Shown: one piece after another, positions 1-37,460 of the stretch
Position numbering within the stretch: the stretch's first letter is position 1
How the letters are laid out: every line of letters starts with the position of its first letter
Assembly (NCBI GenBank): GCA_928724745.1
Contig: CAKMXJ010000037.1
Coordinates: forward strand, 868,001 to 932,000
Source: Anthracocystis setariae
Lineage: Eukaryota; Basidiomycota; Ustilaginomycetes; Ustilaginales; Ustilaginaceae
DNA: 64,000 nucleotides
Direction of reading: 5' to 3'
The notes under the pieces: generated by a model
Seen by the model: only the letters and a program-made list of their open reading frames with translations
The model's database searches: none
What the model was told of the DNA's origin: nothing
Translations under genes and position numbers: made by a program

Positions 1-35
1 ACGTTCCGAGGTTCTAAGACCCCAGGAGCATAACA
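1..35 (+). repeat. 3' end of the 5' LTR (gypsy)
   Basis: Identical to 7851-7885. It ends with CATAACA, the inverse of TGTTATG that opens the 3' LTR. The rest lies outside the window. Confidence 0.95.
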
Positions 36-82
36 TTACAATCGACCTCCCCGTTGCCACCAACGCGGAGACTCCAGCTACC

Positions 83-751
83 ATGCAAACCCGTAGCCAG
101 CATCGTCCCGGCTCCCCGGACTCAGTTACGAGTTCGGGCAGCCCTACCCCCGAAAGTCCCGATTCAGGAGGCGACCCCGTCCAGGGGCTAGTCGCCGCCG
201 TGCAGAGCCTAACCGCCCTGGTCGGAGGATTGGCCGACCAGATCCGGCTGCTCAACAGCGGCCGAGCCCCCGACCCCGCCGTCCCGACCCCGGCAGAACC
301 GGGCCTTCCGCCCATGGAGCACCCGGGAGACCCCTTTCCGGAACGCGAGACCTCGGAGGAAAGGTACGCCCGCGCTACTCGCCTTATGGGCGAGCGCGGG
401 TCCAATCCCCAGCCGGTGCCCCCGGGAGCTCCCGTCGTGGCTCCCAACTGGGACCTTACGGAGGACCATTCTTCCCGGGTCAAGACCCCGGAAGTTAGCG
501 TTGCCGCCCCCTCCTGGGACGGTAAGCGCGACGAGCTGGAGGCTTTCATCGAACAATGCACCCTCCATTTCGATCTTAACCCGGCACGCTTCCCCTCCGA
601 CCCCCCGCCGTGTCTTATGGGCCCTAGCCCATATCTCGGGTGTACCCCGGGAGCGGCTCCGCAACCTGCGCCAGGCCCGCCCGGAAATCAACCTGTTCCA
701 CAAGTGGGACACGTTCTGCGCCGATCTCCGCCGCACCTACGGGGATCCTAA
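83..751 (+). pseudogene. Gag N-terminal part (gypsy), frameshifted
   Basis: An ATG at 83 opens a Pro/Ser-rich N-terminus followed by a capsid-like start (WDGKRDELEAFIEQC, about residues 145-159). The frame is convincing only to about base 605. From there the capsid continues in another frame (RRVLWALAHISG), and the tail up to 751 is out-of-frame sequence. The switch falls in a C-rich stretch near 592-608, consistent with a one-base indel. Gag builds the virus-like particle. What is seen is one broken capsid gene, not a normal gag/pol programmed frameshift, which would lie at the end of gag. Confidence 0.8.
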
Positions 752-4971: not shown

Positions 4972-5692
4972 CTCCTAGCTGCCCCCGCCTCCCGGACGCC
5001 AGCGCGGGAGCAACCAGCGCGGTCACCGTGGGAAGCACCGGCGAGGGAACGGGCGACGCACTGTCCCGACCCGGAAAGCGGGCCAGTAGTCGGGAGCCAT
5101 GCGCCCCGGCACACTCAGCTCGTCCCGGTCGACTTCCCGACCCGGCCACCGTACCCGGGGGACAGAAGACTCGCTGACACACTCACACACACGCCCACAC
5201 TCTTACCCTCACTCTCACACACGCACACACACACTCAACACGCGGGAACTCGGGGTAAACACAATCTTATTCCCGGGATCCTAATGACCCCGGACACACG
5301 ACAGAACATGGCTCCCGGGGGCCTATCGACGCCCCCGACGCGGAGGGGTGCGAGGACGGGACTCGTATACGTCCGAGTCCACCATCACCACATCCTCGTC
5401 AGAGTCCTCCCCGGACTCCCGGCTCTGGTCCTCCGCCCCCGAGGACTCCTCGCCGCGGGACTCGCCCCGGGAGTCTTCCCGGGAGCTGCCCCGACGACGG
5501 GCACGGATCGGGGCCCGCATGTCCCGCACCACCGCCTGAGCACGGCGGCGCTGGGCACGCCTCTCCGGCTCGGGAGAGGGAGGGCGGAGTCCACCCACCG
5601 GGAGACGCTTCCCGCCCGTTTGGAAGCTCCCCGGGAGGCGCTTACCCCCCGACTGCGGAGGGCGCTTTCCTCCCGTCTGTGGCCGAGAGCCA
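4972..5692. other. GC-rich 3' region of the gypsy element
   Basis: No sense-strand gene is supported. Around 5170-5235 there is a degenerate CACA/CTCACA tract. From 5323 on, the minus strand has an open frame discussed separately. The CCCGG pentamer and its reverse are very frequent here, as in the rest of this element. Confidence 0.5.
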
Positions 5693-5964
5693 CTAGCCCG
5701 GGGAGCTCGCTCCCCCGCGTTGGCGTCCCGGGACGCTGCCTTTTGGCACGCGCCAACTCCGGGGGTGGCCGGAGCGTATCCCGGGGGAGGGGAACCCCGG
5801 GCGTCGGGACGGCCCAGCTTCAGCATTGGGCCGCGGGGGGAGCCGCCACGCGAGCAGGGGCGGGGGCGGGAACCGGGACAGGGGCAGGGGCAGGCGCAGG
5901 CACCATCGGGGCGGGGGAGGTGGCGGGACGCCAAGCTCCCGGGTGATGCTCTCAAAAGCACCAC
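5323..5964 (-). other. Second antisense frame, possible true C-terminus of the accessory gene
   Basis: An open frame of 213 codons overlaps the end of the antisense gene in another phase. It shows protein-like features: repeated Q(T/S)GGKR-P units, an Arg-rich segment, and an acidic Ser/Glu/Asp-rich tail ending PRTPPRRGRR. The overlapping end of the main frame is low-complexity Pro/Arg. A one-base indel in the G/C runs near 5900-5945, or a missed intron, would join them. Both frameshifts in gag-pol of the same element also lie in or next to C-rich runs. Confidence 0.35.
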
Positions 5965-7252
5965 TCACACCCTCCAGGTACCGGAGGATGCTCTCGTCCC
6001 GAGAGGACCACTCGAGACGCCTCTCCGCTCCCACGGCAGCGGTCCGGCGAAGGACCTGCACCAACGCGGCGATGACTCCCGCCGCGTGGGATGCCGCCTC
6101 CCGGGCCCCGGCCAGATGTTGGTCCCCCGGGGCATCGAAGGGACACACCTGGCGCAGGGCCAGGGGAGCATCGGGGATGAGGGTGGTTTGTTTCCACCCC
6201 CTTTGACCCCGAGGGGGCCGGGAGCCCGGGGCACTGCCGCCCGCACCGGAAGACGGCCCAGCGGGGGACTCGGGGGCCCGGGGACGAGTGCCCACCTTGG
6301 CCTGGCGCCGAGCCTCGTACCGAGCACGCGCGGGAGCGTACTCGGCCGCCAGATACCCCGGCAGGTCTGCCGCCGAGAAGGAAGTAAAGGGCATCCCGGG
6401 GTTAGGACGTACACCCCGGGCCCGGAGGACAAGATAGGCTTCCATCAGGAAGCCGCCCTCCTGACGTCCCGTGATGTCCGGGACGCGCCCTTGCCAGTCG
6501 CAGGGATACCCCGCGGCATGGCACCTCTCGCACGCAGCATGCTGGCCGTCCCGGGGGTCCTCCGGACCCCCGACGTCCCGATGCGCGTACCCCAGGGAGC
6601 ACTGGGGGTGGGGTTTCTTCTTACTGTTGGCGCAAGACCAACAGTGCCCATACCCCTCCGAGGCGGGAGGGGTTCCCCGTGCCCTGACCTCCCGGACCAG
6701 ACCTGCCAGCCTCCCGGGATCCCCGATCGCTACGCCAGCCCCGGAAGTCGGGGCGGCCACGTTCGAGGGCCCGGGGACAGTCCCACTGGAAGGGACCATC
6801 GCGGTGCTGGCTTCTGGGCCCGGGAGCCCGGGAGCCTGCTGCCCAACTTCCCGACACGCGGCCGAAGCCTGTGCCGGGGACTCGTCCACGCCCTGGACGC
6901 CCGGGACCAAATCGGGGCCAGCTTCCCCGCGCGGGAGCACGGGGGACTCATCCACATACAGGGAGACTACGTCTCCCTCTTGGGCCACATAGCGACCCGA
7001 CTCGTCCACACCCTCCGGGGCACTCACGCCCCGGGACTCGTCCACTACCTCCGGGGCACTCACGCCCCGGGACTCGTCCACGTCATTGCTGTTGCCAGGG
7101 GCGGGGGCAGAGCCTCCCGACACCCCGGCACCGGAGCCGCCTCGCCGGGCGGAAGATCTGGTTGCTGTCAGAAAAAAAAAAAAAATAAAAAGAAGAAGAC
7201 GTTAGTACGGTCCACGCCACTCTCCGGGTCCCGAACAGTACTTACCGGGCAT
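5693..7252 (-). CDS. Antisense spliced gene in gypsy: six-cysteine accessory protein
   Basis: Not a recognised family. On the minus strand an ATG at 7252 starts a 7-base exon (7252-7246) followed by a GTAAGT donor. An 81-bp intron (7245-7165) ends in a T-rich tract and CAG, and the frame then stays open from 7164 to 5693 (about 492 aa if there is one intron). Near the N-terminus VDESRGVSAPE-type repeats occur. The middle holds a cysteine module: CX2CX10C (CWSC...C), 22 residues, then CX2CX6C (CERCHAAGYPC), reminiscent of fungal Zn(II)2Cys6 domains but with different spacing. A helical region follows, then a poly-Pro stretch. A TATA box lies about 85 bp upstream. The C-terminus after about 5940 may be in another frame. 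The function is unknown; a DNA-binding or regulatory role is inference only. Confidence 0.55.
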
Positions 7253-7334
7253 CTTGGCTGAAGTTAGTGTTCCGAATCTTGAGGAACGAGGTTGTGGGGG
7301 AAGGGAAGGAACCAGGAACGGTAGAGAGCCGGGT

Positions 7335-7527: not shown

Positions 7528-7885
7528 TGTTATGATTGGGATATCGGGAGAGTTAGTGATTGGTTTCAGTATCAGAGCGGGCAGGAGTGGTCCCCCCGAT
7601 GACGCCCGGATCGGGGATCGGGGGCAGACTGCGGCATCACCCGGGGGGTATCCGGGAGGCCACATAATCTCGCGTCCTAAGTCCACCACACTCACGACAG
7701 GACGTCGATTGTATTTTAGCTTACTCACTCTAGTAGGTGGAAATATCAGACCTTCTCCCGATCTCCCGCTCGCCCGCTCCGCTATCTTGGCAACGATCCC
7801 GGGAGCAACACCCGGTACCACGCCCCTGGCCTCAACACAGACGCACCGCCACGTTCCGAGGTTCTAAGACCCCAGGAGCATAACA
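7528..7885 (+). repeat. 3' LTR of the gypsy element
   Basis: 358 bp, starting TGTTATG and ending CATAACA, a perfect 7-bp terminal inverted repeat. The last 35 bases match the window start. The next five bases, GACGG, are the expected right copy of the target duplication; the left copy is outside the window. Confidence 0.92.
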
Positions 7886-7889
7886 GACG

Positions 7890-9020
7890 GATGCCTTCCG
7901 CCACGTTGTCACCGCCCAATCCGATGCGCGCCTTCTTGGCTTCACCTTCGACGAGCGCTTCTACATGGAAACTGGCCTTACCTTCGGGGGAAGAAGCGCA
8001 CCTTGGTTATTCAATCTTTTCGCCGAGGCCCTTCACTGGGTAGTACAGTCCACCACGGAGAACCCAGTCGAGCACTATCTCGACGACTTTTTTGGCGCAG
8101 TCCCTACATCGCAAGACCCAAGTCGCCCTCTCCACGCCCTAGCCCTAGCGTGTACGGCCTTTGGGTTGAGCCTGGCTTCCAACAAGACCTTTTGGAACGA
8201 TACCAAGCTCGAGATTCTGGGCATTGAGATCAATACGGTCCACCAGACGGTCGGCATCACCGAGGAGCGTCGCCGCCGTATCCTGGAGGCCATTGACTCC
8301 CTTATCTCTCGCCGGTCTGCTCGCCTCTTGGACTGGCAACGCATTGCCGGTCTTCTACAGTTCGTCTCCCAGGTGGTTCCCCATGGGAAGGCTTACCTCC
8401 GCCGCCTATACGATGCGGCCAGAGCAGCTCATCGCCATCCCCTCTCCCTGCGCCGCATCTCCGGGTCAGCGGCAGCAGAACTCCGCTGGTGGCGCGCCAC
8501 ACTGACGGCATGGCCTGGCCAGTCCCTCCTCCAACCCTCGCCTATGGTGGTGGAGCATGTCTGGACTGACGCTTCCAAGCGGGGTTACGGCGCCCACTGT
8601 GGCCCTATGCTCTCTCCGATTGCTGTGCTTTCTAGAGAGGTCCCTCGACGCCACCGTTCCAAGGACATACGGTTTCTGGAGGCCCTCGCCGTGCTTGAGG
8701 CGCTGCGCTCCTTCTCTCCGGCCTGGCAGGGACCGCGCACTGTCGTTCTCTACGTCGACAACACCAATGTCGAGCATGGCTTACGTTCCGGCAGCTCTCG
8801 CGATCCTCTGACTCAGACACTCCTGCGGGAGATCTTCGGTCTCTGCTTCCTCCGCCAAATCACTCTTCGGCCGGCTCGCATTGCTTCGGTAGACAATCAC
8901 CTTGCTGACCTCCTCTCCCGCCGCCGTTTCCGCTCCATCCAGGACCGTTTTCCTCAGGCGCACCGCCTTCTCTTCCCTCGCACCTCCGAGGCCCGCCCCA
9001 GTCCTTCGTCGAGGCTACCG
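7890..9020 (+). pseudogene. Reverse transcriptase-RNase H, split by the gypsy insertion
   Basis: From base 7890 the frame reads DAFRHV, the RT motif A region of DIRS-like elements, so the gypsy LTR interrupts the gene just before that aspartate. The first ATG at 7965 is internal. The catalytic box YLDDFFGAV lies near 8080-8105. RNase H follows: [12 protein letters not shown] near 8560, [12 protein letters not shown] near 8750 and [12 protein letters not shown] near 8900. The frame stays open to 10157, but after about 9010 it is only the shadow of the recombinase frame. No stop or frameshift is seen in the RT-RNase H part; the insertion is the only visible lesion. Confidence 0.85.
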
Positions 9021-9058
9021 GGTGCTCCACCACCGCTGCGTCTTACATCTGGAGCGGC

Positions 9059-10021
9059 TTGGCGGAATCCAGTCGCCGCAGGAGCGCTGGGGTCCCAGAC
9101 CGGTTCAGGTCGTTCGTCAGGCGTCGCTTCGGCCCCTCTGCAGTCCCCTTCCCGGCATGCGATCTCTTCCTTACCGAGTGGGTCTGCGACATGGCCGGTG
9201 TCCGTTCCTACCACAGCATCAAGCACGAGCTCGATGCTCTCCGCTCGTGGCATGTCGACCTCGGCCTGCAGCTTGAGGGCTTCACCCAAGGGCGTCTGGA
9301 GCGCGCCATCCGTGGCATCAAACGGACACACGGACTACGACCGGCCGCCTCCAAGCTCCCTATCACCTTGCCCCTCCTTCGGGCGATCCTCGAGCAGCTG
9401 CATCACACGCCGTCTCTTGGTGCGTGGGATCGACAAGTGCTGGCAGCCTCCTTCGCAGTATCCTTCGCATGTTTCCTCCGATGTGGCGAGGTCACGTGGG
9501 ACCAGTCGTCGCCAGCACAGCTCAAGGTCGCCTCGGTCACCTGGTACGAGGACTATGCCATCCTGCTCCTCCCTGCCTCGAAAACCGACCCCTTCCGTCT
9601 CGGCACTCCGCTGGTCGTTCCCAAGGTTGGGGGTATCGAGTGCCCGTATCAAGCCCTTCGCCTCATCAGCCCTGCCGTCCGCCGCCCCTCCGACCCTCTC
9701 TTTGGCCTTCACGATGGTCAACGGCCACTCACACGCTCATTCTTCCTTCACCACCTCCGCCTTGCACTCTCACGGCTCCAGCTGGACACCAAGCAGTATG
9801 CCGGCCATTCCTTCCGCCGCGGCGCCGCTACATGGGCCGCGTCACAAGGCATCGACGCCGACACAATCAAGCTGCTTGGCAGGTGGACATCAGATTGTTA
9901 CCGGCGGTACGTCGACCGTTCTGCCGCCGACCGACGTGCTCTTGTCGCCTCGGCACTCTACACCTCGCGGCAAGGCCCCCTGGTCCCGGCGACGACTTCA
10001 TGGCGCGACCCTGTTCTCTGA
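9059..10021 (+). CDS. Tyrosine recombinase of the Ngaro/DIRS-like element
   Basis: Tyrosine recombinases cut and rejoin DNA through a 3'-phosphotyrosine; here the enzyme would integrate circular cDNA. The catalytic set is visible: Arg in FLRCGEVTW (near 9475), Lys in PASKTDPF (near 9580), GHSFRRG (HXXR, near 9805), GRW (near 9880) and the Tyr nucleophile in YRRYVDRS (near 9900). The frame is open upstream of 9059 (TTG) into the RT-RNase H gene and overlaps it in another phase, so translation probably needs a frameshift or reinitiation, usual for this class. The protein looks intact, unlike the RT upstream. Confidence 0.85.
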
Positions 10022-10087
10022 GCTTGGAGGAGCCTCCGGCCCCGACGCTGTGAGCGCTTCCTGCTGTGCAGGCGCCACAGCCTGTGT

Positions 10088-10196
10088 GGCGGGCCGGGAG
10101 CCTCTTTTGAGCTCAAGGACCTCACGGGTTTTCCTTGCCTGCAATCGAAGTCGTTAGTGTTTCTCTCTCTCTCGTGCGGTTGATAGGCAGACGGGA
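10088..10196 (+). repeat. B1 split direct repeat of the Ngaro-like element
   Basis: 109 bp, repeated at 10430-10538 with an offset of 342 and no mismatch seen. Begins GGCGGGCCGGGAG and ends GGCAGACGGGA. Confidence 0.85.
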
Positions 10197-25631: not shown

Positions 25632-25720
25632 ACAGAGAGGTTTCGGTCGACGCCGGAGGGTGGTGAGACCACCTCGCTTGCCGAGGTGGTGAGTGAGGTA
25701 GAGAGATGGTGGTTCGGAAG
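25632..25720 (+). repeat. Candidate left terminus of the Harbinger-like element
   Basis: AGAGAGGTTTCGGTCG is followed by the hairpin GAGACCACCTCGC ... GCCGAGGTGGTGAG. It is inverse to the right end at 37128-37143 (CGGCCGAAACCTCCC). The copia element is inserted right after this piece. Confidence 0.4.
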
Positions 25721-25782
25721 TGTTGGATTCGCCTTACGAATCAGCTTTTCATCTCGCAATCGGGCACATCACATATCGGCAC

Positions 25783-25806
25783 ACAACACTCAGTAGTGAG
25801 TGTTGT
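25783..25806. repeat. Copia palindrome in the LTR, copy 1
   Basis: Perfect 10-bp arms ACAACACTCA / TGAGTGTTGT around GTAG. Repeated in the 3' LTR at 33075-33098. Confidence 0.9.
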
Positions 25807-25914
25807 ACACGCGACGGCGAATGTCGAGACACCGGTCCCAATGTTCGCCGGGCGGATTTAGACATTTCCCGCGCCCACGCGACACCCGACAGTACCCTCA
25901 TTGGTCCGCTGACA

Positions 25915-25946
25915 GGTCTCAACATTCGATACCAAATGTTGAGACC
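25915..25946. repeat. Copia palindrome in the LTR, copy 2
   Basis: Perfect 12-bp arms GGTCTCAACATT / AATGTTGAGACC with an 8-base loop. Repeated in the 3' LTR at 33207-33238. Confidence 0.9.
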
Positions 25947-26155
25947 GCTCGACGAATCATGAACCTCAGTTACGAACCCACACACTCATCGCCCAATGAC
26001 AGGACCACATTAGAGGGGTGGCAAACCGGTCCGCCCCGAACGGAACCTTCTACCTAGCATGGAAGAGGAGAGAAGGACGGGCGGACGAGACACGAACCAA
26101 TCATGACTGAGGTACGAGGCTCAGTGGCGGAATAAGGGCCCACATGATGAAGAGA

Positions 26156-26175
26156 AACACTCAATAACGAGTGTT
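26156..26175. repeat. Copia palindrome in the LTR, copy 3
   Basis: Arms AACACTC / GAGTGTT around AATAAC. A related, less perfect copy lies at 26566-26587. Confidence 0.8.
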
Positions 26176-26277
26176 GGGGACATAGACGGAGGACAAGATA
26201 GTCACTATAGGAAACGCATAGGGAGTATAGCGAAGATGGGGACACCTTCGCTGTACGAGTTAGGATCAAGACATATG

Positions 26278-26291
26278 TATATAAGACCCGG
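26278..26291 (+). promoter_or_regulatory. TATA box of the copia LTR
   Basis: TATATAAGACCCGG in the middle of the LTR, followed by CACCCGAGAAAGTG. Transcription would start some tens of bases downstream, setting the U3/R boundary. Same sequence in the 3' LTR at 33570-33583. Confidence 0.7.
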
Positions 26292-26368
26292 GACCAGCAC
26301 CCGAGAAAGTGAATAGAACTTATCGAATCACTACCTTACTTATCGACTTATAAGATCTGACGACTAGC

Positions 26369-26394
26369 ATCAACATCCGATATTGGATGTTGAT
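26369..26394. repeat. Copia palindrome in the LTR, copy 4
   Basis: Perfect 10-bp arms ATCAACATCC / GGATGTTGAT around GATATT. Confidence 0.9.
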
Positions 26395-26662
26395 CTTCCT
26401 CGTCCAAATCCTTCGAAGCTTCTAACCGCTGCGCCCCGTTCAATATCGATATTGTCCTAGCATTACTAAGTCACAGACATCAAACTCTGTGATAGTTCGA
26501 GCACGGACTTAACGACTCACGACACTCTCCCAAGATCGCAACTTAGGAAATAGGATATCGGATGTCAAACATCCATTACCGAGTGTTGTAAGTCGTATCT
26601 AACATTGGATAAACTAACGCCGCGATAGCTACTTCGCATCGATTGACTTTAAGAATCTAATA

Positions 26663-26674
26663 GGTTATGAGCCC
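26663..26674 (+). promoter_or_regulatory. Primer binding site, half-tRNA type (initiator tRNA-Met)
   Basis: GGTTATGAGCCC directly abuts the LTR. It is the exact complement of GGGCUCAUAACC, the anticodon stem-loop of fungal initiator tRNA-Met. Priming from this internal site by a cleaved tRNA is known for Drosophila copia and yeast Ty5. The Gag start codon ATG (26667) lies inside the site and faces the CAU anticodon. Confidence 0.85.
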
Positions 26675-29600
26675 AACGCCTGACGGAAACTCTGAAGGTA
26701 CCTACCGAGGAACTCGCTCAAGATCACGTCCCCTCGATTCGATCGCTGAAACTATCAGCAGGGACACACAAGACACCAACGAATTCGACAACTCATCACT
26801 GAGTGTCGCCAACGTAACCACAAATATCAACACCCCTCGCAACTCGCCGACACCCGGATCTGTGTTCACAATGACGGAATCGAATGCATCGCAAAACCAC
26901 CTGCGACTACCGAAACTCGAACAAGCCAAAGACTACTACACATGGAAAGATAAATGTATCGATGTATTGATGCAAAAGGGAATACGGGTGTACGGAATCG
27001 TCAGAGGGACTTTACCCCGACCATCAGAAGACGACACCGCATATGGAGATTGGCTGAACGCAAACCTGACCGCATGCGGCATGCTCAGAAGTAGCTTATC
27101 AAACGACATCAAGCACACCATCAATGATCTCGAGGACGCTCACCAGATATGGACGACACTCGAGGATCGATTTGCCAAATCCATGAAGTGGCAGCTCGAA
27201 GAGATGGAGACGGAATTCAACAGCCTAAGGCAAGACAGACGAACCATCGACGGCTTCGTCGGTCGCATCAATCAACTCGCAGATCACCTCATGCTTGCTG
27301 GATATACCATTACCTTCCACAAGAAGTACAGTATCCTAATGAAAGGACTACGGAAGGAATACGAGAACATAGCGGCTCAGATCAAAGAAACGTACCGAGC
27401 TCGCCGAGAACAAGGACAGATGATCATACACAGGATTGGGAACGAAAACGAAATGTTCACTGTCGCAAGTCAGACCATCGACGAGAAAGTCGAGCTCGAC
27501 TCCATCGTCACTAGGCTCAGGAGTGAAGAACTACGCTTGGGACTCAACAACCATGGACTGGAAAGCAAACACAAGAACAACTCTTCGGCATACTACGCGA
27601 GTGATGGGAACAAGAAGGGAAAGAAGAACACTCAGCGTCCAATGTCCAAGAGTAAGAAGAAGGTCCCCATCGAACAAATGACTTGTTACAATTGCCAACA
27701 AAAGGGGCACTTGTCAAGGAACTGCAATAACCCAAAGGTAGACCGGCCAGGGTCAAACATTCAGAACCGAGTCGGGGGATCCAATAATCCAGGGTCAAAC
27801 ACTCAGAACCGAGTCCAGGGACCCAATAATGAGAACGCGTACTCAATTACCGACTCAACACATCCCCGAACGACGATGTGGCTCATGGACTCAGGTGCGA
27901 GCAGACACATCTGCTGTAACAAAGATCTCTTCTCGGACCTTCACATTGGCGTCTCAATGAAACCAATCTGGGTTGCAAACGATGTCCCAGTCAAGATCGA
28001 AGGACTCGGTACTGTAGAAATGGAAGTCAACGTAGGAAACGGGTTAACCAATAGGATCACCCTCACCAACGTCGCCTATATACCATCCTTCAGCGTCAAC
28101 TTGCTGTCAACAGGAATCATGCGAAGGAAAGTCAGAATTACAACGACCGACAAGCAAACGATCGCCCAAACTAGAAGCGGAAGAGTCACCTGCAGAGGTG
28201 TACACATCGGACCGCTCACATACGTCGACCAGGTCGGTATAGATTTCGCCGGACTCGCCGCTGATCACAGCACCAAGGCTGACGACTGGCACAAACGCCT
28301 CGGGCATCCAGGAAAACAACGTCTTGAAGAGATTGCCAAATCAGTCCCCGGAATGACTATCGACACGCGAAAGTCACAACCCAAGTGCGAAACCTGCGAA
28401 GTGGGTAAATCATCCAAGTTGCCCTTTCAACACTCAGTACTGAGTGTTGACACCCCACTTCAGCTTGTACACTCCGACGTCAAGGGCCCGATTCCAGATG
28501 AGACTCCACAAGGCCATCGATACGCAGTCACATTCATTGACGATTGCACTCGATTCACAATGGTTTATCTCATTTCTCGCAAGAGTGAAGTCTTTGGATG
28601 CCTGCAAGAGTACAAGACAGTCATGGAAAGGCAAACTGGCAATCAGATGAAACGACTCCGTACTGACAATGGAGGGGAGTACACGAGTAACGAAATGGCA
28701 GACTATCTTGGCCGACACGGCATACTACACGAACGGACATCACCGTTCGCTCCCGAGCAGAATGGTGTCGCGGAGAGAATGAATCGAACGCTCTTCAACA
28801 TAGTGCGTTGCATCATGATTCAGTCAAGCGTCCCAGACACCATGTGGGGTGACGCACTCCTGCATGCCGTGTACCTCAACAATCGGTTACCAACCAAAGG
28901 AAACGGCATGAAGACGCCATACGAAGCGTTGTATGGCAGACCTACGGACCTGACTATGGTACGCACCTTCGGATGTGCAGCATTTGCCCATATTCCCGCC
29001 GAAAAACGAACCACTTTGGACAATCGAGCCGTGCCTTGCGTATACCTCGGCGTGACGCCAGGAACCAAGGCTTACAAGCTATACGATAAGAACGAATGTC
29101 AATACCTGACACAGGTTCACTGCACCTTCGATGAGACCTCATTCCCCTTCGCTGGGATTCGTGAATCAGACGCGAGGTTGCCAACATCCAGTGACGAGTA
29201 CGACAACCCAGTACTGAATGTTGGAGACTCACCCACCGAAACACGCATCAACAACACAGATGTCGCAACCCTCAACGAAATCCCTGAGCGCAATACTTTG
29301 CCTTACCTTACCCCAGAAGAACGCGCGCAAGGAATAGCGACTCCTCCTGGGTCACCGCCGGGATCGCCAAGACTCCAGGCCAACGCGGTACGAGAAATCG
29401 TCGACGAGTTGGAACATTCGGTATCAGATGTTGAGACCACCGATCCAGTTGGCCAACTCGATGATGAACCTCGCACAATCGCTCAAGCGCATCGAAGACC
29501 AGATTGGAACTTGTGGAAAGAAGCAATCGATAAAGAACTTCTGTCACACAAGGACAACAACACATGGACAATGACCAAACCACCATCTGGATCCAACATC

Positions 29601-31082
29601 ATCGGTAGCCGATGGGTCTTCAAGATTAAGAGAAAGTCAGATGGATCGATCGATAAGTACAAGGCAAGACTTGTGGCTCAAGGATTTGCCCAGAAACACG
29701 GCATCGACTATGATGAGACCTTCGCCCCAGTAGTCAAGATCTCCACTCTGAGACTCTTGATGATCATCAGCTTACAAGTTGGGTGGAGCATCTATCAAAT
29801 GGACGTCTCGACCGCATACCTGAACGGGGAGATCGACAAGGACCTCTACATGAGACCGCCGCCAACACCAGATTATCCACGAGGATCACCCGATGGAACG
29901 GTCTGCAAGCTCAATAAGTCACTCTACGGACTCAAGCAAGCTGGGCGGACTTGGTACCACAAGGCGGACTCCACACTGCGAGGAATGGGATTCACAAGGA
30001 GCAAACACGATTCGGCACTATATATCAAACATTCAGTACCAAATGTTGAGACTGGTCGTGTGATCTTGACACTCTACGTTGATGATATCCTCATTTTCGC
30101 TGAGAACAAAGATTCAGCCTCCAGTGTCATGACCGAGCTCCGAAAGCATTTCAAGATGACCGGCGGCGAGCTATTGGATTACATCCTTGGCATACAAGTC
30201 GAACAGACTTCGAAGACGATCCACCTTACGCAGACCAGCTACATCAATCGCCTCCTCACAACATATGGCTTAGACTCCGCAAACATCGTCCATACACCAC
30301 TTAATCCAAGCAGCGACCTCAAAGGAGGGGAACCACTCCCCCCACAAGAACACTCCACGTACAGAAGCATCATCGGCCAGATGCTATACATAGCCACCTG
30401 CACCAGGCCTGACATCGCCTTCGCGATCCAAAAGCTCAGCCGAGAACTCGCACATCCGCATGCTAATGCCATGGTCCAAGCGAAACACCTACTCCGTTAC
30501 CTCAAGGGAACTAACACGCATGGACTAATGTACAGACGCATACTCGATTCCCAACATTCAGCATCGAATGTTGACTTTGGAAAATGGTTGCGCACATTCA
30601 CCGATGCAGATCACGCGGGGGACACTGAGACATCGCGATCCACATCTGGAATTGTCAACACTGTCGCTTCAATGCCGTACAGCTGGGTATCGAAACTCCA
30701 GTCGATCATCACGGACTCCACCACATACGCTGAATACGTCGCGATGGCAGAGGCCGGCAAGGAGATCATATGGACTCGATGGGTAATGTCTGAACTCGGC
30801 TTGCAAATCAAAACCCCGACAGACCTCATGGTGGACAACAGAGCAGCAATCGAGCTCAGCAAAGAGCCGAAGTTCCATAACAGAACTAAGCATTTTAGGC
30901 TCAAGTACCACATCACACGAGAGTACCAGGAATCAGGTGTGCTCTCTGTGAAACCAGTATCGACAAACGATCAATTGGCCGATATCCTGACAAAGGCGCT
31001 CGAGAAGAATAAGATTACGACCAACAGGGACGCACTCGGGATCCAATGCCAAAAACCGACAATGAAACCCAACACTCAGTAA
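26667..31082 (+). CDS. Gag-Pol polyprotein of the copia element
   Basis: 1471 aa in one uninterrupted frame. Order: Gag (about 80-250), zinc knuckle CYNCQQKGHLSRNC (about 340), aspartic protease WLMDSGASRHIC (about 405), GAG-pre-integrase with WHKRLGHPG (about 540), integrase D in HSDVKGP (about 601), D in RTDNGGEY (about 665) and E in PEQNGVAERMN (about 697), RT with YQMDVSTAYLNGE (about 1043) and LYVDDILIF (about 1136), and RNase H with TDADHAGD (about 1311) and TYAEYVAM. Integrase before RT marks the Ty1/copia class. All catalytic residues are present. The start codon is inside the primer site and the TAA stop is inside a palindrome. Several in-frame palindromes insert HSVxxVE-like peptides. 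Confidence 0.97.
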   Translation: MSPTPDGNSEGTYRGTRSRSRPLDSIAETISRDTQDTNEFDNSSLSVANVTTNINTPRNSPTPGSVFTMTESNASQNHLRLPKLEQAKDYYTWKDKCIDVLMQKGIRVYGIVRGTLPRPSEDDTAYGDWLNANLTACGMLRSSLSNDIKHTINDLEDAHQIWTTLEDRFAKSMKWQLEEMETEFNSLRQDRRTIDGFVGRINQLADHLMLAGYTITFHKKYSILMKGLRKEYENIAAQIKETYRARREQGQMIIHRIGNENEMFTVASQTIDEKVELDSIVTRLRSEELRLGLNNHGLESKHKNNSSAYYASDGNKKGKKNTQRPMSKSKKKVPIEQMTCYNCQQKGHLSRNCNNPKVDRPGSNIQNRVGGSNNPGSNTQNRVQGPNNENAYSITDSTHPRTTMWLMDSGASRHICCNKDLFSDLHIGVSMKPIWVANDVPVKIEGLGTVEMEVNVGNGLTNRITLTNVAYIPSFSVNLLSTGIMRRKVRITTTDKQTIAQTRSGRVTCRGVHIGPLTYVDQVGIDFAGLAADHSTKADDWHKRLGHPGKQRLEEIAKSVPGMTIDTRKSQPKCETCEVGKSSKLPFQHSVLSVDTPLQLVHSDVKGPIPDETPQGHRYAVTFIDDCTRFTMVYLISRKSEVFGCLQEYKTVMERQTGNQMKRLRTDNGGEYTSNEMADYLGRHGILHERTSPFAPEQNGVAERMNRTLFNIVRCIMIQSSVPDTMWGDALLHAVYLNNRLPTKGNGMKTPYEALYGRPTDLTMVRTFGCAAFAHIPAEKRTTLDNRAVPCVYLGVTPGTKAYKLYDKNECQYLTQVHCTFDETSFPFAGIRESDARLPTSSDEYDNPVLNVGDSPTETRINNTDVATLNEIPERNTLPYLTPEERAQGIATPPGSPPGSPRLQANAVREIVDELEHSVSDVETTDPVGQLDDEPRTIAQAHRRPDWNLWKEAIDKELLSHKDNNTWTMTKPPSGSNIIGSRWVFKIKRKSDGSIDKYKARLVAQGFAQKHGIDYDETFAPVVKISTLRLLMIISLQVGWSIYQMDVSTAYLNGEIDKDLYMRPPPTPDYPRGSPDGTVCKLNKSLYGLKQAGRTWYHKADSTLRGMGFTRSKHDSALYIKHSVPNVETGRVILTLYVDDILIFAENKDSASSVMTELRKHFKMTGGELLDYILGIQVEQTSKTIHLTQTSYINRLLTTYGLDSANIVHTPLNPSSDLKGGEPLPPQEHSTYRSIIGQMLYIATCTRPDIAFAIQKLSRELAHPHANAMVQAKHLLRYLKGTNTHGLMYRRILDSQHSASNVDFGKWLRTFTDADHAGDTETSRSTSGIVNTVASMPYSWVSKLQSIITDSTTYAEYVAMAEAGKEIIWTRWVMSELGLQIKTPTDLMVDNRAAIELSKEPKFHNRTKHFRLKYHITREYQESGVLSVKPVSTNDQLADILTKALEKNKITTNRDALGIQCQKPTMKPNTQ
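27750..27834 (+). repeat. Two-copy tandem repeat in Gag-Pol after the zinc knuckle
   Basis: Two units of about 42 bases, each with GGTCAAAC then ATTCAGAACCGAGTC or ACTCAGAACCGAGTC, coding Gly/Ser/Asn-rich linker. The TCAAACAYTCAG core resembles one arm of the palindrome family. Confidence 0.75.
28427..28450. repeat. Copia palindrome in the integrase coding region
   Basis: A perfect 24-base palindrome with arms TCAACACTCA / TGAGTGTTGA around GTAC. In frame it codes QHSVLSVD, just before the integrase core. Confidence 0.9.
29413..29432. repeat. Copia palindrome, coding copy between IN and RT
   Basis: AACATTCG ... CAGATGTT, imperfect, coding EHSVSDVE. A weaker relative at 29204-29224 codes DNPVLNVG. 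Confidence 0.65.
30028..30047. repeat. Copia palindrome, coding copy in RT
   Basis: AACATT / AATGTT around an 8-base loop, coding KHSVPNVE. Close to the LTR copy at 25915. Confidence 0.75.
30552..30573. repeat. Copia palindrome, coding copy before RNase H
   Basis: Arms CAACATTC / GAATGTTG around AGCATC, coding QHSASNVD. Confidence 0.8.
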
Positions 31083-31092
31083 TGAATGTTGG
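31069..31092. repeat. Copia palindrome carrying the pol stop codon
   Basis: Arms CCAACACTCA / TGAATGTTGG (one mismatch) around GTAA. The Gag-Pol stop codon TAA is 31080-31082. Confidence 0.85.
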
Positions 31093-31250
31093 ACCCTGTC
31101 TATGTAAATACCCGGCATTACTTGACAGCTTGCCGAAACGCCTCAAGGAAAATTCAAACACGAAACAAAAATCAGAAAAAGGATAAAAAAGACCTACGAA
31201 GGTCAACCAAAAACAATTACCGGCCCTCCCAAAGCTCACACACCGCCGCC

Positions 31251-31268
31251 ACATTCAGTACTGAATGT
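31251..31268. repeat. Copia palindrome at the start of the extra ORF
   Basis: Perfect 18-base palindrome, arms ACATTCA / TGAATGT around GTAC. The first ATG of the extra ORF (31265) is inside it. Confidence 0.85.
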
Positions 31269-32938
31269 CAGTAACCCGAAACCGAATATCTTCTGCGCAT
31301 TCGCGGCGCATCGACTTCATTAAACGGCTGCGCAGAACAGTATCTACAAACCCTCACACCGCTCAAGTGCCCTCGAAGAAGCGAGCCAGACTTGGAAAAC
31401 GCACTATAGGAATGTCACCGACCCTACTTGCGGAGAACCGAACAATCAGACAAAGAGAGAAGGCGGAAGAAGACAAAGAGATCCTGAACTCAGCTCCTTC
31501 GCCTTCCCTCTCTTCTCCTTCTTCTCCTCCTTCTCTCTCTCTTCCTTCCTCACCACCACCACCACACTCCTTTCCTCCGCCGACGACAATGGCGATGTCC
31601 AAGAAGCAACGAGAGGCCCAACGCCGGGCCGTACTAGCTGCCGCCGCGAGGCGCGCAGCTCAGACGGCGAGCACCACCACCACCGACAACGCCGCCGTCA
31701 CCACCACGGCACCAACGACTTGTCCCTCTGGCCCGGATGCCATGGACATCGACGATGACGAGCCCTCTGCTGTCGACAGCATGGCTAGGAACGACTTCGC
31801 CGGGCCCTCTGTCAATCGCGACACGGCCATTACCTCAACGACTCCTCCCCATCTCTCGCCTGCCTTCCACGGGGAAGTGCAGTTGCTTTCGATCTCGCCG
31901 TCCGCCACCCGTGGCTCGGACTCGCCGCTGCCCGCCTCAACAGGCGCAGCATCAGAATCTCCACCGCCCATTCGAGTACCACTTTCCCCACCTCCGTCGC
32001 CTGCCAATCGTGGCTCGGCGTCATCGCGGTCCACCTCAAGAGACACGACTTCACCTTCGCCCCCTGCCCGGCGTGGCACGACGGATGGATCATTCTCGCC
32101 GCCCTCTGCTCCGGAGAGCACGGCACCCACGACGCCTGCATCCGCTCGACCGAGCACAGGCGGTTTGAGGTTGAGGTCGACGCGCAACGTCACCTCCCTC
32201 GCTTCCACCTCCTCCAACATGATCGCCGCTGAGCTCCCCCCGCCCAGCCAGCAATCCCTTTTCCGATGCCCTCAGGACGACGAGGGCAATCTCATCGACG
32301 ACGACGACGAAGAGGATGCAAGCGCCTCTCGTCGAGACCCTCCCAGCCTGGCACCCGAGCCCGCTGGTGGATGCGCGAGGTGGCCCTTGCCACCGCATCT
32401 TGCTTGGTCCGGACCGATGGACCCCGATATCGGCCTGGAGAAGCAACGCAGGTTCGTCGTACCTGCTGGGGAAGTACGTTGCTCATCCGAGCACTTCCCC
32501 AAGCATGGTGACGACCTGCATCCCGGATTCCGCGTCGCCGAACCGTCGTGCAAACCCTGCGAGACGCGCAGGATCCTTTGCACGTACGGCGCCGGTGTCA
32601 ACCACATGGGCCGGAATCGCGCAACAGACAAGGGTGCCTGCGACGCCTGCATCGTCAGCGGCAGGATTTGTCGAGGAACAGGATTCGAAGGCAAGCGCAC
32701 CCGACGAGTGGTACTCGCGGGTGAAATCCGAGCTGGACTGGAGGAGCTGCGACAAGCAGCGGAAGCCGGCATCAAGGGCGACAGGAACGTGAGGGGCGAG
32801 AAGAACAAACCTCGCCTCTGGACTCCGGCCAACGTCATTAGGATTGCCGGCACTCTTCGAAAGATGTTCGACGAGCGTGAAGCACTCGTCGGACGTAAGA
32901 CTGGACGTGGAAACGCGGACCAGGAATATGAAGAGTAG
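31265..32938 (+). CDS. Copia accessory ORF: six-cysteine, low-complexity protein
   Basis: 557 codons from the ATG at 31265. Other possible starts are 31412 and 31590; the last follows a long C/T-rich tract that looks like a 5' UTR and begins MAMSKKQREAQRR, so the true protein may be about 449 aa. The N-terminus is basic, then Ser/Pro/Thr-rich, then acidic (LIDDDDEEDA). Near the C-terminus are two CX2CX6C units, CKPCETRRILC and CDACIVSGRIC, separated by 19 residues, followed by a basic stretch (GKRTRR) and predicted helices. This resembles a Zn(II)2Cys6 cluster with an enlarged loop, so metal and nucleic-acid binding is plausible but unproven. No match to Gag, Pol or Env is visible. It lies between pol and the 3' LTR on the sense strand, 182 bp after the pol stop. 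Confidence 0.75.
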   Translation: MSVTRNRISSAHSRRIDFIKRLRRTVSTNPHTAQVPSKKRARLGKRTIGMSPTLLAENRTIRQREKAEEDKEILNSAPSPSLSSPSSPPSLSLPSSPPPPHSFPPPTTMAMSKKQREAQRRAVLAAAARRAAQTASTTTTDNAAVTTTAPTTCPSGPDAMDIDDDEPSAVDSMARNDFAGPSVNRDTAITSTTPPHLSPAFHGEVQLLSISPSATRGSDSPLPASTGAASESPPPIRVPLSPPPSPANRGSASSRSTSRDTTSPSPPARRGTTDGSFSPPSAPESTAPTTPASARPSTGGLRLRSTRNVTSLASTSSNMIAAELPPPSQQSLFRCPQDDEGNLIDDDDEEDASASRRDPPSLAPEPAGGCARWPLPPHLAWSGPMDPDIGLEKQRRFVVPAGEVRCSSEHFPKHGDDLHPGFRVAEPSCKPCETRRILCTYGAGVNHMGRNRATDKGACDACIVSGRICRGTGFEGKRTRRVVLAGEIRAGLEELRQAAEAGIKGDRNVRGEKNKPRLWTPANVIRIAGTLRKMFDEREALVGRKTGRGNADQEYEE

Positions 32939-33000
32939 CAGTCCAATGCAAAATGTCTTGATCGAAATGTACTTGTCTGTGCCGTGTGATGTGAGTGCTC

Positions 33001-33011
33001 GATGAGGGGGA
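33001..33011 (+). other. Polypurine tract of the copia element
   Basis: GATGAGGGGGA directly before the 3' LTR. Confidence 0.7.
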
Positions 33012-33012
33012 C

Positions 33013-33954
33013 TGTTGGATTCGCCTTACGAATCAGCTTTTCATCTCGCAATCGGGCACATCACATATCGGCACACAACACTCAGTAGTGAGTGTTGTAC
33101 ACGCGACGGCGAATGTCGAGACACCGGTCCCAATGTTCGCCGGGCGGATTTAGACATTTCCCGCGCCCACGCGACACCCGACAGTACCCTCATTGGTCCG
33201 CTGACAGGTCTCAACATTCGATACCAAATGTTGAGACCGCTCGACGAATCATGAACCTCAGTTACGAACCCACACACTCATCGCCCAATGACAGGACCAC
33301 ATTAGAGGGGTGGCAAACCGGTCCGCCCCGAACGGAACCTTCTACCTAGCATGGAAGAGGAGAGAAGGACGGGCGGACGAGACACGAACCAATCATGACT
33401 GAGGTACGAGGCTCAGTGGCGGAATAAGGGCCCACATGATGAAGAGAAACACTCAATAACGAGTGTTGGGGACATAGACGGAGGACAAGATAGTCACTAT
33501 AGGAAACGCATAGGGAGTATAGCGAAGATGGGGACACCTTCGCTGTACGAGTTAGGATCAAGACATATGTATATAAGACCCGGGACCAGCACCCGAGAAA
33601 GTGAATAGAACTTATCGAATCACTACCTTACTTATCGACTTATAAGATCTGACGACTAGCATCAACATCCGATATTGGATGTTGATCTTCCTCGTCCAAA
33701 TCCTTCGAAGCTTCTAACCGCTGCGCCCCGTTCAATATCGATATTGTCCTAGCATTACTAAGTCACAGACATCAAACTCTGTGATAGTTCGAGCACGGAC
33801 TTAACGACTCACGACACTCTCCCAAGATCGCAACTTAGGAAATAGGATATCGGATGTCAAACATCCATTACCGAGTGTTGTAAGTCGTATCTAACATTGG
33901 ATAAACTAACGCCGCGATAGCTACTTCGCATCGATTGACTTTAAGAATCTAATA
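33013..33954 (+). repeat. 3' LTR of the copia element
   Basis: 942 bp, matching 25721-26662. It is followed by the target duplication GGAAG. Confidence 0.95.
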
Positions 33955-34266
33955 GGAAGGTGGTGAGGAGAACAAAGCGGAACTGACCAAATCGGCGCGC
34001 TCAGCTTTCCGATAAAAAAATTTTCACACTCACACGTGACGCGTTAAAAATGCTTAATAATCAACATCATTTTCTACGTATATGTGAGATCTATCGAAAC
34101 TCGCTGGTGGTAGTACTTGTCCTCACGATCATGCAGAAGCAAATGCCGGGACCGAAAACTGTGATTGTAATGCAAAGTTGTTTACTCATCGGCGTCGTAC
34201 AAACTTAAACCCCACATTCCGGCCCACAACAACCGCTTCTTGCCGACGAAACCAGCTTGTACAACC

Positions 34267-35538
34267 ATGAACACCGACGACGCTCACACGCTCCTCGGAA
34301 ACTTCCCGGAGGAGCTCCGGGAAGGCATAATCAACCTCTCCGGCACCATCAATACCAACCGTTCACAGTCCGAGGTCAGCGGAGTACCTGAAATTCAACT
34401 CCCGGCAACATCCCTCGGTCCCTATGCCTGGTCTCCTAGCCCACCTCGCTATGTGCCTTCTCCTGTACATAGCTCACAAGTTCTGCTGCCGTCGCCGTCA
34501 CCATCACAAGCAATACCAAGTCAAGTTCCACCACACACGATCACAGTTCAATGGGTTCGAAACAAGCTAGATGAAATGGCAAGGTTTCCTAGCAAGACAC
34601 AGCCCCCGTGGGATCCTGTCTCTACCGACGACGTGGTGAGGTCTGTGGTAGCTCACAATCCTAACGTTGAGACTGCGAGCGCTGATAAAGGGAAGGCCTG
34701 GGATCGCGCTACGATTGAATTCAACATCAAGGCCGCTCAACAGGGACTGCCATTGCGATCTGAGCGTGGCATCAAGAGAAAGATCAGCGAACTAGCCAAG
34801 GCTCGCAAGACTCGATCGCTGAGGAACAGCAGATCAACAGGAATCACTGAACATCGTACCGAGATCGAGTCCATGCTCGACGAATTCAACGAGTCGGTGT
34901 CAGCTCGAGCCTCAAGAGGTTCTCAACCACGCGCGGACAATACAGAACAACAAGAGGATCGGGATAGGTTGGCACACAGGCTCAGACAGCATCAAGACAT
35001 GGTTCATGACGACTTCGAGGCACTACCTGATCCACCTCCGCATGGCGCTGTCGCAAGATCAATGACCACGCTTCGAGAACGCCGTAGGTCAGCTTCAAAC
35101 TCGCACGGAGAGTCAGACGAGGATCTCTTCACAGGACCAAGCCGCAAGCGCGCACGCAACACATCGGACGTACTAGGTGAGTTAACTCGAAGCACACAAG
35201 AGTATCGCGAATGGGAGAAGGACTTCAAGATGCAGCAACTTGAGCTGTTCAAGTCGCAGGTCGAAGCAAACAACAGGCACACAGAGGCAATGCAGCAGCA
35301 GCTAAACCAGCATGCTGAGTTGATGGCAGCGATGCTGGGTCTTATTCAAGGCAGGCACGGGGGTCTTAGTACTAGGTCAACAGCTTCGATTCCAACTACT
35401 CTCGACACCATCGAGGCCTCTCCTCGCTGCAACCGCTGTGCTGCTCCTCCTCCTCAAGATCAAGAATCGCCTTCGGCAAGAAGGCATCACCGCTCCGACT
35501 TCACTCGCATCACAAGGTCTCGAAGTCGTGGTCTTTAG
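34267..35538 (+). CDS. Companion ORF of the Harbinger-like element
   Basis: 423 aa from the ATG at 34267 (the frame is open from 34240). No family is firmly recognised. Residues 40-100 are Ser/Pro-rich. A central basic helical part (WDRATIEFNIKAAQQG, GIKRKISELAKARK) could be a DNA-binding segment. A possible nuclear signal (SRKRAR) follows. The C-terminal third is a Gln-rich, coiled-coil-like helix (about 310-370). PIF/Harbinger elements normally carry a second gene for a Myb/SANT-like protein needed for nuclear import and transposition of the transposase. The position, convergent with the transposase and inside the same ends, supports that role, but the Myb signature is not clear by eye. Confidence 0.5.
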   Translation: MNTDDAHTLLGNFPEELREGIINLSGTINTNRSQSEVSGVPEIQLPATSLGPYAWSPSPPRYVPSPVHSSQVLLPSPSPSQAIPSQVPPHTITVQWVRNKLDEMARFPSKTQPPWDPVSTDDVVRSVVAHNPNVETASADKGKAWDRATIEFNIKAAQQGLPLRSERGIKRKISELAKARKTRSLRNSRSTGITEHRTEIESMLDEFNESVSARASRGSQPRADNTEQQEDRDRLAHRLRQHQDMVHDDFEALPDPPPHGAVARSMTTLRERRRSASNSHGESDEDLFTGPSRKRARNTSDVLGELTRSTQEYREWEKDFKMQQLELFKSQVEANNRHTEAMQQQLNQHAELMAAMLGLIQGRHGGLSTRSTASIPTTLDTIEASPRCNRCAAPPPQDQESPSARRHHRSDFTRITRSRSRGL

Positions 35539-35566
35539 CTTATCATTCATGTATATAGAACGCAAT

Positions 35567-36848
35567 CTAAAGTACATATTCTACCTGAAGAGCTTCTTCG
35601 CTATCGGCCATCGTGAGTGAATTGATACCCGTCTGATCAAGCTGAGGGTTGGGTTGGGGATGAGCATATGCTACTCGAGGACGAGAGAAGTACTCCTCGA
35701 CTGTAGGAGGATCGCAGTGCATAGTCTTACTCACAATGTTACCTATGCAGCATGTCTTGGCGTTGTACAGTATGATACTTACGAGGTAATCCTTTCCGAC
35801 GGGGCTCAGACCCGTCTTCTGCTGCCTCTTGACATCGAACCGAGGCCATTGACCAGGTATCAAGCCGATAGACCATTCCACTTGTACTCTGAACTTGTTC
35901 ATTACATAGTTAAAGTTCGACTGGTAGTCTGCGATGATGTTACCCCCGAATCTTTGTGAGTATTGCCGACGATACTCCATAAGCCTGGTCCCCATACAAG
36001 TACATCTGCTTCCCGTCCTCCGTCTTAGCATGCGCTTGAGCCCATTGAGCCAGCTTCTGAGCGTGTGGAATGCGGCTGTCATGTACAGGCCCGAGGTACG
36101 GTTGCGAGCAAAAGATAATGCCATTTGGTACTGAGATTACTTGATACTTGAGAGCATGTAAGCGTTTGTGACCACTGTATACTCTCTCCTGATCCTCCTG
36201 CGGCCTCGCTATCGGCCTAACTGTGCCATCAATAGAACCCCATATGAGCGGGAGGCCAAACTTGCGATTGACGGCGGCGGCGTAGTGCTCAAGAGCTCGA
36301 GGCGACGTCAAGCGATGTCGGCGGCTTTGTACATTGAGCAAGTGACCCCATTCTTTGTATATAAGGTCAACCATTGTTCGTACGATCCTGCTGATGCGGC
36401 CGTGAGACCAGCCATACTGGCCTTCAAGCGAGCGAAGGGTCCGGCCACGTAGAAAGACACACACCATGAACAGAGCAATCTCAGAATCAACACAATCTTG
36501 CGCATGCGTTCGTATGACTCTTGGAAGCTTCATTGCATTGTGTATCTCTTTGAATGTGTCTGGAGTGAGGCCTGTGTCGGCGAGGAAGTGGACAGCGTCT
36601 TGCTCGATGATGATATTGGCAAGACGGCGAGGATGAAGGTTGGTTCGAGGGTTTCGTTGTGAGGCAGCAATGACTGCGACGGCATCAAGCAGAACGGCAT
36701 CTCCGGACGATTCTAACGCTTCGGCGTGCATGTAGCTCTGCATGATCGCGTCGGCGTCTTCCGAGAACGGCCGGAAGCGGCGAAGTAAGGTTTCAGAATG
36801 CGGGGAAGCGGCTAAGATGGTGGTAGTACTGGATCTATCACTCAACAT
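35567..36848 (-). pseudogene. PIF/Harbinger DDE transposase, frameshifted
   Basis: ATG at 36848 (the frame is open from 36875). An N-terminal helical part is followed by the DDE_4 nuclease: WGSIDGTVRPIAR (first D, near 36225), YSGHKRLHALKYQ, GPVHDSRIP (near 36085) and YGDQAYG (second D region, near 35995). The frame ends at a TAA near 35940. The rest continues in another frame (FGGNIIADYQ, NKFRVQVEWSIG with the catalytic E, to 35567). The break is about one base in AAGATTCGGGGG and no GT-AG intron fits. Harbinger transposases cut and paste DNA with TWA target duplications. This copy is probably inactive unless the frameshift is a sequence error. Confidence 0.75.
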
Positions 36849-37460
36849 ACTAGAAACCGGGCTCAAGAAGATCACTCGACCTCGACAGACGCTTGTTCAA
36901 CCTCAGTTTAACATCTCAGACTCGTTCTAACGTAATGGCAATGCAAACAATGTTATATTTCGCTTAAACTACACCCGATTAGAAGGGTAGCTGGTAAGAC
37001 GGAGACCTGACGAAGCTTAGCTGAAGGAGGTGGACGGTAAGATGGCCTCGAGGTGGAGAGACCACCTCTCGGTCATGCATGAACGTAACCGAGACGCCGT
37101 CTCTCCACCGAAAAGGTGGTATAACCAGCGGCCGAAACCTCCCTAACATAAAATTTCTTTCAACAACGAAAGCCTTTTTTTTTCTTTTTTGTTTTTTGGA
37201 AATTCTTTCAAAGCAAAGCGACTCACGTGACGCGTTAATGCGTTCTTCTCCCACTTTGATGTCATTGTCCATCATCTTGACCTTGTCGCATCCATTGCCA
37301 CCCGAAAGATCACTGCTTTCTATACACAGGGGACAAGCTATTGCGACCGGCTCCCACTTGCTGGTATCTTGGCATTGGCAAACTCATCACCTCACCAGCG
37401 CAGTCCATCAGGCCTGTCAATCTCGCAAGTTGAAGCAGGCGTCACAAACACAGCATCACA
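36849..37460. other. Right end of the Harbinger-like element and LEA1 promoter
   Basis: Candidate right terminus at 37128-37143 (CGGCCGAAACCTCCC), preceded by GGTGGAGAGACCACCTC and CCACCGAAAAGGTGG hairpins. T-rich DNA and CACGTGACGCGTTAA (37226-37240) follow; that 15-mer also occurs, with the same orientation, at about 34034-34048 inside the element. The LEA1 ATG is about 315 bp beyond the terminus. Confidence 0.5.

Follow-up and report, generated by a model that had tools for sequence, protein, structure and literature searches.

Private palindrome arrays in three copia families of Anthracocystis setariae and their candidate element-encoded reader

How a selfish element distinguishes its own DNA from that of its host is an open question, and it is raised by a copia-type retrotransposon in a 64,000-nucleotide stretch of the fungus Anthracocystis setariae (contig CAKMXJ010000037.1, positions 868,001 to 932,000; the whole stretch is referred to as the window). 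Short palindromes of one pattern are dispersed through its long terminal repeats (LTRs), its coding sequence and a spacer, and an earlier note on this DNA had proposed that the element hosts a palindrome that propagates itself or, alternatively, that these are binding sites for a dimeric protein. The genome (21.5 Mb in 36 contigs; a single genome, with one copy of each of families B to E read) was searched for the palindromes and for relatives of the element, here family A. The second proposal was supported by family-private words, by conserved positions and arms, and by a doubled CX2CX6C pattern in the second open reading frame of the element (ORF2). Families A, B and C each carry a private array of about 12 palindromic sites, and these are probably (roughly 0.68) dimer-type sites read by the ORF2 product of the same family.

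The array stood out from its surroundings with and without a predefined word. At up to three mismatches the A word CAACAYTCNGTANNGARTGTTG was found at 11 sites in 25722-33013 (one LTR counted) and at none in the remaining 55.8 kb of the window; at up to four mismatches there were 12 sites versus one. Sixty first-order Markov simulations of the element gave a mean of 0.05 sites at up to four mismatches (maximum 1). Equal density in shuffled or host sequence, the outcome that the earlier note had named as telling against its pattern, was not found in simulated sequence or in the rest of the window. As the word was derived from the sites themselves, a word-free test was added, in which all 20-base near-palindromes were listed and the largest set of look-alikes was found. 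The A element contained 15 near-palindromes, eight of them in one look-alike family, versus 0 or 1 in seven other stretches of the window, two in a gypsy stretch and at most two in 100 simulations. The A palindromes are thus genuine and much more numerous than chance would give. The element and its sites are as follows (sites without strand; gag-pol sites numbered by alignment column).

25716-25720 and 33955-33959: target-site duplication GGAAG flanking both LTRs (read from sequence)
25721-26662, forward strand: 5′ LTR, 942 bp (self-comparison; ends read from sequence)
25784-25805, copy at 33076-33097: LTR site 1, 0 mismatches (motif match)
25920-25941, copy at 33212-33233: LTR site 2 (motif match)
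26155-26176, copy at 33447-33468: LTR site 3 (motif match)
26371-26392, copy at 33663-33684: LTR site 4 (motif match)
26567-26588, copy at 33859-33880: LTR site 5 (motif match)
26667-31082, forward strand: gag-pol frame with gag, zinc knuckle, integrase and RVT_2 (open reading frame list, Pfam domain search)
27755-27818: two partial sites (at 27755 and 27797; five mismatches each, one good half; motif match)
28427-28450: perfect 24-base palindrome in pol, column 677, position common to B and C
29202-29223: weak pol site, four mismatches, column 954
29412-29433: pol site, column 1028, position common to B and C
30027-30048: pol site, column 1239, position common to B and C
30552-30573: pol site, column 1414, position common to B (the C site is at column 1408)
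31070-31091: site spanning the gag-pol stop codon, 0 mismatches
31249-31270: site in the spacer between pol and ORF2
31589-32938, forward strand: ORF2, 449 amino acids, Zn2Cys6-like CX2CX6C-x19-CX2CX6C, candidate reader of the sites (open reading frame list, cysteine pattern)
33013-33954, forward strand: 3′ LTR (self-comparison)

The element is a complete LTR retrotransposon, its two 942-bp LTRs being 100% identical in self-comparison. The integrase core ahead of RVT_2 (rve at 598-696 and RVT_2 at 965-1213 of the 1472-codon gag-pol frame), together with the identical LTRs and the GGAAG duplication, places it in Ty1/copia; the closest named pol relative found, from Kalmanozyma brasiliensis, was 60% identical across the reverse transcriptase part. 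By eye, the gag start codon (26667) lies inside a presumed primer-binding site directly 3′ of the LTR (26663-26674).

All sites named in the earlier note were recovered at their coordinates, including the perfect 24-base palindrome at 28427-28450. Its description of ten sites that share one pattern was loose; the pattern is exact only at 25784, 28428 and 31070 (and at 33076 in the second LTR), the others differing by one to four or more changes. The list also lacked the sites at 26155, 26567 and 29202, the copies in the second LTR, and the sister families. The coding copies do keep one frame, as all five gag-pol sites with up to four mismatches are in a single phase. The gag-pol stop codon is at the centre of palindrome 31070-31091; in the C copy (L058) a site starts right after the pol stop.

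Genome-wide, the pattern of the earlier note returned 38 forward and 39 reverse rows, corresponding to 63 places, and a looser A pattern returned 100 places; the reversed control was 0 for both. A LTRs contain 39 of the 63 strict places, and another 16 are beside A pol. Among the eight elsewhere, four belong to relicts of A-type LTRs with 74-84% identity (in one case over 86 bases only), one is in an A fragment, one is 1.1 kb from an 82% fragment, one (contig C18, 11438) is 1.3 kb from a partial LTR match, and one (contig C23, 92393) was left unclassified. A-type DNA holds at least 60 of the 63, and none of them, 62 being classified, is demonstrably in host DNA.

Are relatives of the element marked in the same way? 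The best 50 of 146 candidates from a genome search with pol comprised 13 places at 97-100% identity (A), eight at 72-73% (B), 12 at 66-68% (C), three fragments at 69-74%, and 14 places at 53-54% (D); family E was found through its RVT_2 domain. Families B and C have palindrome words of their own, AACACGC(n6)GCGTGTT and AAACCCGACGTCGGGTTT, respectively. At up to three mismatches the A word occurred 11, 0 and 0 times in the A, B and C elements, the 22-base B word 0, 9 and 0 times, and the C word 0, 0 and 11 times, with no occurrence of any in D, E or the rest of the window; among the three words of 20-22 bases there was no cross-match. Word-free analysis placed eight of 11 near-palindromes of B and nine of 13 of C in a single family; D and E reached 1, and 100 simulations of each element at most 2. 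Across the genome, 68 places matched the B pattern and 57 the C pattern, with none for either reversed control. Among the first 50 listed of the 57 C places, 48 are by C pol or ORF2; among the first 50 listed of the 68 B places, 25 are within 4 kb of B pol, and several others show the pair spacing of B LTRs.

Half-site profiles, built from 12 (A), 11 (B) and 12 (C) sites at up to four mismatches and read toward the symmetry axis, were C-A-A-C-A-Y-T-C-R-g-T for A, a-A-A-C-A-C-G-C-R-A-C for B and n-r-A-A-A-C-C-C-G-A-C for C. Their skeleton is common, and most of the differences are at positions 4, 7, 10 and 11, which fits a single protein lineage shifting its specificity. Families D (L070, L071) and E (L072) have an open reading frame with a double CX2CX6C after pol and no palindrome family. 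In D, TACCGAC is in excess and is possibly a monomeric word; TACCGACA in that family is suggestive only (z 10.8 under codon shuffling, with 95% of null maxima at 9.2 and the largest at 12.3).

The gag-pol frames were compared in a codon-threaded alignment containing five sites each in A and B and seven in C. The A and B sites occupy identical columns at 677, 1028, 1239 and 1414, and C sites are at 677, 1028 and 1239, with a further one at 1408. Co-location within four columns amounted to four of five for A-B, three of five for A-C and four of five for B-C, and was matched by random placement in 0, 0.03% and 0 of 100,000 trials, respectively. The encoded peptides track the words; column 1239, for example, reads KHSVPNVE in A, KHATSRVE in B and KNPTSGSE in C. 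Conservation of the HSVxxVE peptides in distant copia proteins, which the earlier note had considered fatal to its reading, was not seen: the palindrome-encoded peptides are absent from D, E and six outgroup copia proteins (one of which does not cover column 1414).

The earlier note had the coding palindromes insert their peptides. For 28427 (column 677) this proved wrong, since A, B, D and E match five of the six outgroup proteins in length there, C and the sixth outgroup having one residue more. At column 1239 families A, B and C exceed the outgroups by 3 to 5 residues, and at column 1414 by two or more. Comparison of three coding sites across six or seven other A copies showed substitutions as the only differences. 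From the alignment, the array would have arisen through substitutions and small length changes in pol linkers, an origin best placed before the A/B/C split; after the split the word appears to have changed in concert across the array while the positions of the sites stayed. Such a pattern would be expected for the targets of a co-evolving binding protein, and different words at homologous positions argue against an origin of the sites by insertion of ready-made 24-bp units. An apparent site-to-site conversion at 30027 in one A copy was dropped, as two of the three differences are common to two other copies.

Constraint on the sites was examined in 30 LTR loci (out of 41 matches; 24 distinct sequences), with columns that are CpG in any copy excluded. 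Polymorphic columns made up 7 of 70 in the arms, 6 of 24 in the centres and 141 of 611 outside the sites (Fisher p 0.006 for the arms). Two old relicts likewise differed less in the arms than elsewhere (3/42 versus 82/432, and 2/57 versus 89/587). Base pairing was tallied on the sense strand over sites with up to five mismatches, a set that takes in weak sites and, for B and C, the sites of both LTRs. Of the 432 pair cells, 325 were Watson-Crick, 35 A-C, 14 G-U and 58 other. A comparison of five degenerate positions, of low power, showed no significant co-variation between the halves of the 11 best A sites (p 0.08 to 1). Absence of significant co-variation and the lack of favour for G-U fit two half-sites read on DNA, and the latter, together with the conserved LTR arms, favours the palindromes as half-site pairs for a DNA-binding dimer over hairpins in RNA.

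What might read such sites? ORF2 is the candidate. Its double CX2CX6C was present at 30 of 30 loci (L038-L067, the best 30 of 46 matches), in the D locus L070 and in the window ORF2, with seven proteins aligned; family E has, by eye, a shorter post-pol frame with the same doubled pattern. In all seven within-family pairs from A, B and C, the ratio of nonsynonymous to synonymous substitution rates (dN/dS) of the ORF2 core was 0.04-0.13, as expected of a protein under selection. Between families ORF2 is 46-47% (B) and 40-43% (C) identical over a C-terminal stretch in most copies, below the identity of pol. In all three families ORF2 is free of palindromes, which a uniform spread of the sites would give with a probability of 0.0007, and two sites lie between pol stop and ORF2 start in each of the three copies read.

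The repeated CX2CX6C is the pattern of fungal Zn2Cys6 proteins (Gal4-type, PF00172), and the palindromic targets of Zn2Cys6 factors suit a dimer. ORF2 differs from these proteins in being encoded by a retrotransposon and in the 19 residues between its halves. Five of the seven proteins gave weak matches to Pfam Zn_clus (PF00172), with a best E of 0.26, and ORF2 is for this reason called Zn2Cys6-like and not a member. No relatives of ORF2 were found elsewhere in a protein database that did return pol relatives from smut fungi, although its word filter may miss fast-evolving proteins, and a PDB profile search gave one chance-level match (E 2.6).

Several results weigh against private arrays read by ORF2. 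No ORF2 protein has a significant Pfam match, the window member giving none up to E 10 and the best of seven being the one just cited; the 19-residue gap between the cysteine halves exceeds that known from Zn2Cys6 proteins; and the structure model of ORF2 residues 220-449 was unusable (mean predicted local distance difference test score 39.4) and was not used for a fold search. The occurrence in D and E of a double-CX2CX6C frame with no palindrome family weighs against a fixed link between the two. The privacy of the words also has limits: with four mismatches allowed, B has a single A-word site and A a single B-word site, and a 20-base, looser form of the B word gave 13 matches in B plus 1 in A at three mismatches and 14 plus 4 at four. 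Concerning constraint, the initial test, which used complete 22-bp windows of the LTR, was not significant (p 0.17), a result attributed to variation in the site centres, and the CpG-free test on arms alone came later; eight of 13 per-copy arm tests against the window LTR gave p < 0.05, but they were made on related copies and are hence not independent.

In another explanation, which we regard as unlikely, the reader would be a dimeric DNA-binding protein of the host (a repressor, a chromatin boundary or a centromere-type factor) or another element protein, e.g. integrase, with ORF2 unrelated to the sites. The link to ORF2 is indeed indirect, D and E have the ORF2-like frame without palindromes, and the LTR sites flank a TATA-like stretch near 26278 (recognised by eye), as sites of a host factor could do. 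However, the three families of this one genome use words without a cross-match at three mismatches, and a single host factor would not recognise all of them. Host targets would usually be expected as well; the rest of the window has none, and the strict A-word places are almost all in A-type DNA. The lower between-family similarity of ORF2 than of pol also speaks against an uninvolved ORF2. That the palindromes instead act as hairpins in the transcript, in packaging, dimerisation or translation control, is a still slimmer prospect. The predominance of Watson-Crick cells is compatible with it, but a selected hairpin should favour G-U among imperfect sense-strand pairs, where G-U is rarer than A-C; the halves show no significant co-variation (low power in 11 A sites); and three LTR sites precede the TATA-like stretch, so that the transcript probably starts downstream of them, although the 3′ LTR copy may be transcribed.

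Palindromes in coding sequence are known from the Rickettsia palindromic elements, which also are tolerated in one open frame, and the many similar copies here, the coding ones in the one readily open frame and with extra residues at columns 1239 and 1414, recall a palindrome of this type spreading inside the element. This possibility of the earlier note is very improbable: there is no clean unit insertion, as the equal lengths at column 677 indicate; homologous positions in A, B and C hold different words; the A copies differ by substitutions only at the coding sites compared; and, unlike the Rickettsia elements, the palindromes are tied to one element family, as the genome-wide confinement of the strict A word to A-type DNA illustrates. 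As for chance, codon bias or composition, the best 8-mer of A pol was not significant under protein-keeping codon shuffling (z 8.0 versus at most 9.2 in the null), and a slight excess over its own null (9.6 versus 9.4) was seen in one of four host frames. Shuffling of this kind leaves the palindrome-encoded peptides in place and is of low power, and B (11.9 versus a null maximum of 10.5) and C (10.6 versus 9.3) nevertheless exceeded the null; the palindrome-family, motif and position tests are far outside their nulls, and this explanation is refuted.

If ORF2 does read the arrays, what would it achieve? Old copies may offer a clue. Four A- and B-type LTR relicts (L073-L076; contigs C21, C28, C8 and C23) had CpG observed/expected ratios of 0.19-0.42, compared with 1.06-1.22 in young elements, 0.95-1.00 in two host stretches, and 0.95 and 0.78 in the flanks of two relicts. 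Transitions affected 40/92 and 47/120 of C/G in CpG in two relicts versus 50/232 and 47/297 of other C/G, and three younger copies showed little or no CpG excess (11-14/124 versus 24-37/310). Methylation of silent copies at CpG would be expected to leave such a footprint, and the depletion points to CpG-directed silencing and decay; it has to be set against the proposal that it is a mutational footprint and not methylation itself.

Arabidopsis VANDALs are DNA transposons that encode VANC proteins. VANC proteins bind short words that recur along the element and induce loss of DNA methylation, and the words differ between related VANCs of related elements (PMC5735166; PMC10398659). A family-specific array of DNA words along the element is found here as well. 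In contrast, the VANC words (YAGTATTAY; AGTTGTCC/AGTTGTAC) are tandem repeats in non-coding regions, whereas the palindromes are dispersed singly and are partly coding; the VANC system is encoded by VANDALs and the present one by a copia LTR retrotransposon; and binding and demethylation, found for VANC, would be predictions for ORF2. Plant LTR retrotransposons with an additional open reading frame (PMC7264820) resemble the element in having a sense frame between pol and the 3′ LTR; passages of that review describe the sense frames as env-like and the antisense ones as of unknown function, and mention no cognate dispersed palindromes. A literature search returned no description of palindrome arrays or zinc-cluster frames in fungal copia elements, nor of such an arrangement in LTR retrotransposons, although work elsewhere is possible.

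Given the CpG depletion of old LTR relicts, VANC-like anti-silencing or self-activation appears the likeliest role of ORF2 on the array, one that we hold only tentatively. Candidate dimer sites are spread over LTR, gag-pol and the pol-ORF2 spacer; Zn2Cys6-like ORF2 would presumably bind those of its own family as a dimer; and an element coated with its own factor might, as with the plant VANC proteins, stay expressed despite host silencing, the step most weakly supported. A private word would spare host genes and sister families.

Other features of the window are outside this argument. A gypsy-type element at 1-7300 (gag, protease and reverse transcriptase in frame 213-3107) is rich in GCTCCCGG; this word was not above the codon-shuffling null, the largest palindrome family has two members, and no claim is made. 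A minus-strand frame at 5696-7201 in the same stretch has a cysteine pattern like the ORF2 cluster and no Pfam match. At 7884-10157 a reverse transcriptase/RNase H frame overlaps a frame (8909-10021) with a sub-cut-off Pfam match to tyrosine recombinase, and looks DIRS-type. Next to the copia insertion, 34171-36896 looks like a Harbinger-type pair, with a DDE_Tnp_4 transposase (35943-36896, minus strand) beside an opposite frame (34171-35538) without a Pfam match.

The copia families may, on a reading that is possible but falls short of an even chance, constitute self-recognition systems, each encoding a zinc-cluster dimer and its matching operators; protein and array would drift together, leaving the families blind to one another and each resisting silencing for its own copies only. 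Three families in one genome provide matched sets of a candidate protein and about 12 natural sites each, and the co-evolution of a DNA-binding protein with its targets thereby becomes directly testable in vitro. If the proposal is true, linkers of the pol protein would have been shaped by DNA sites.

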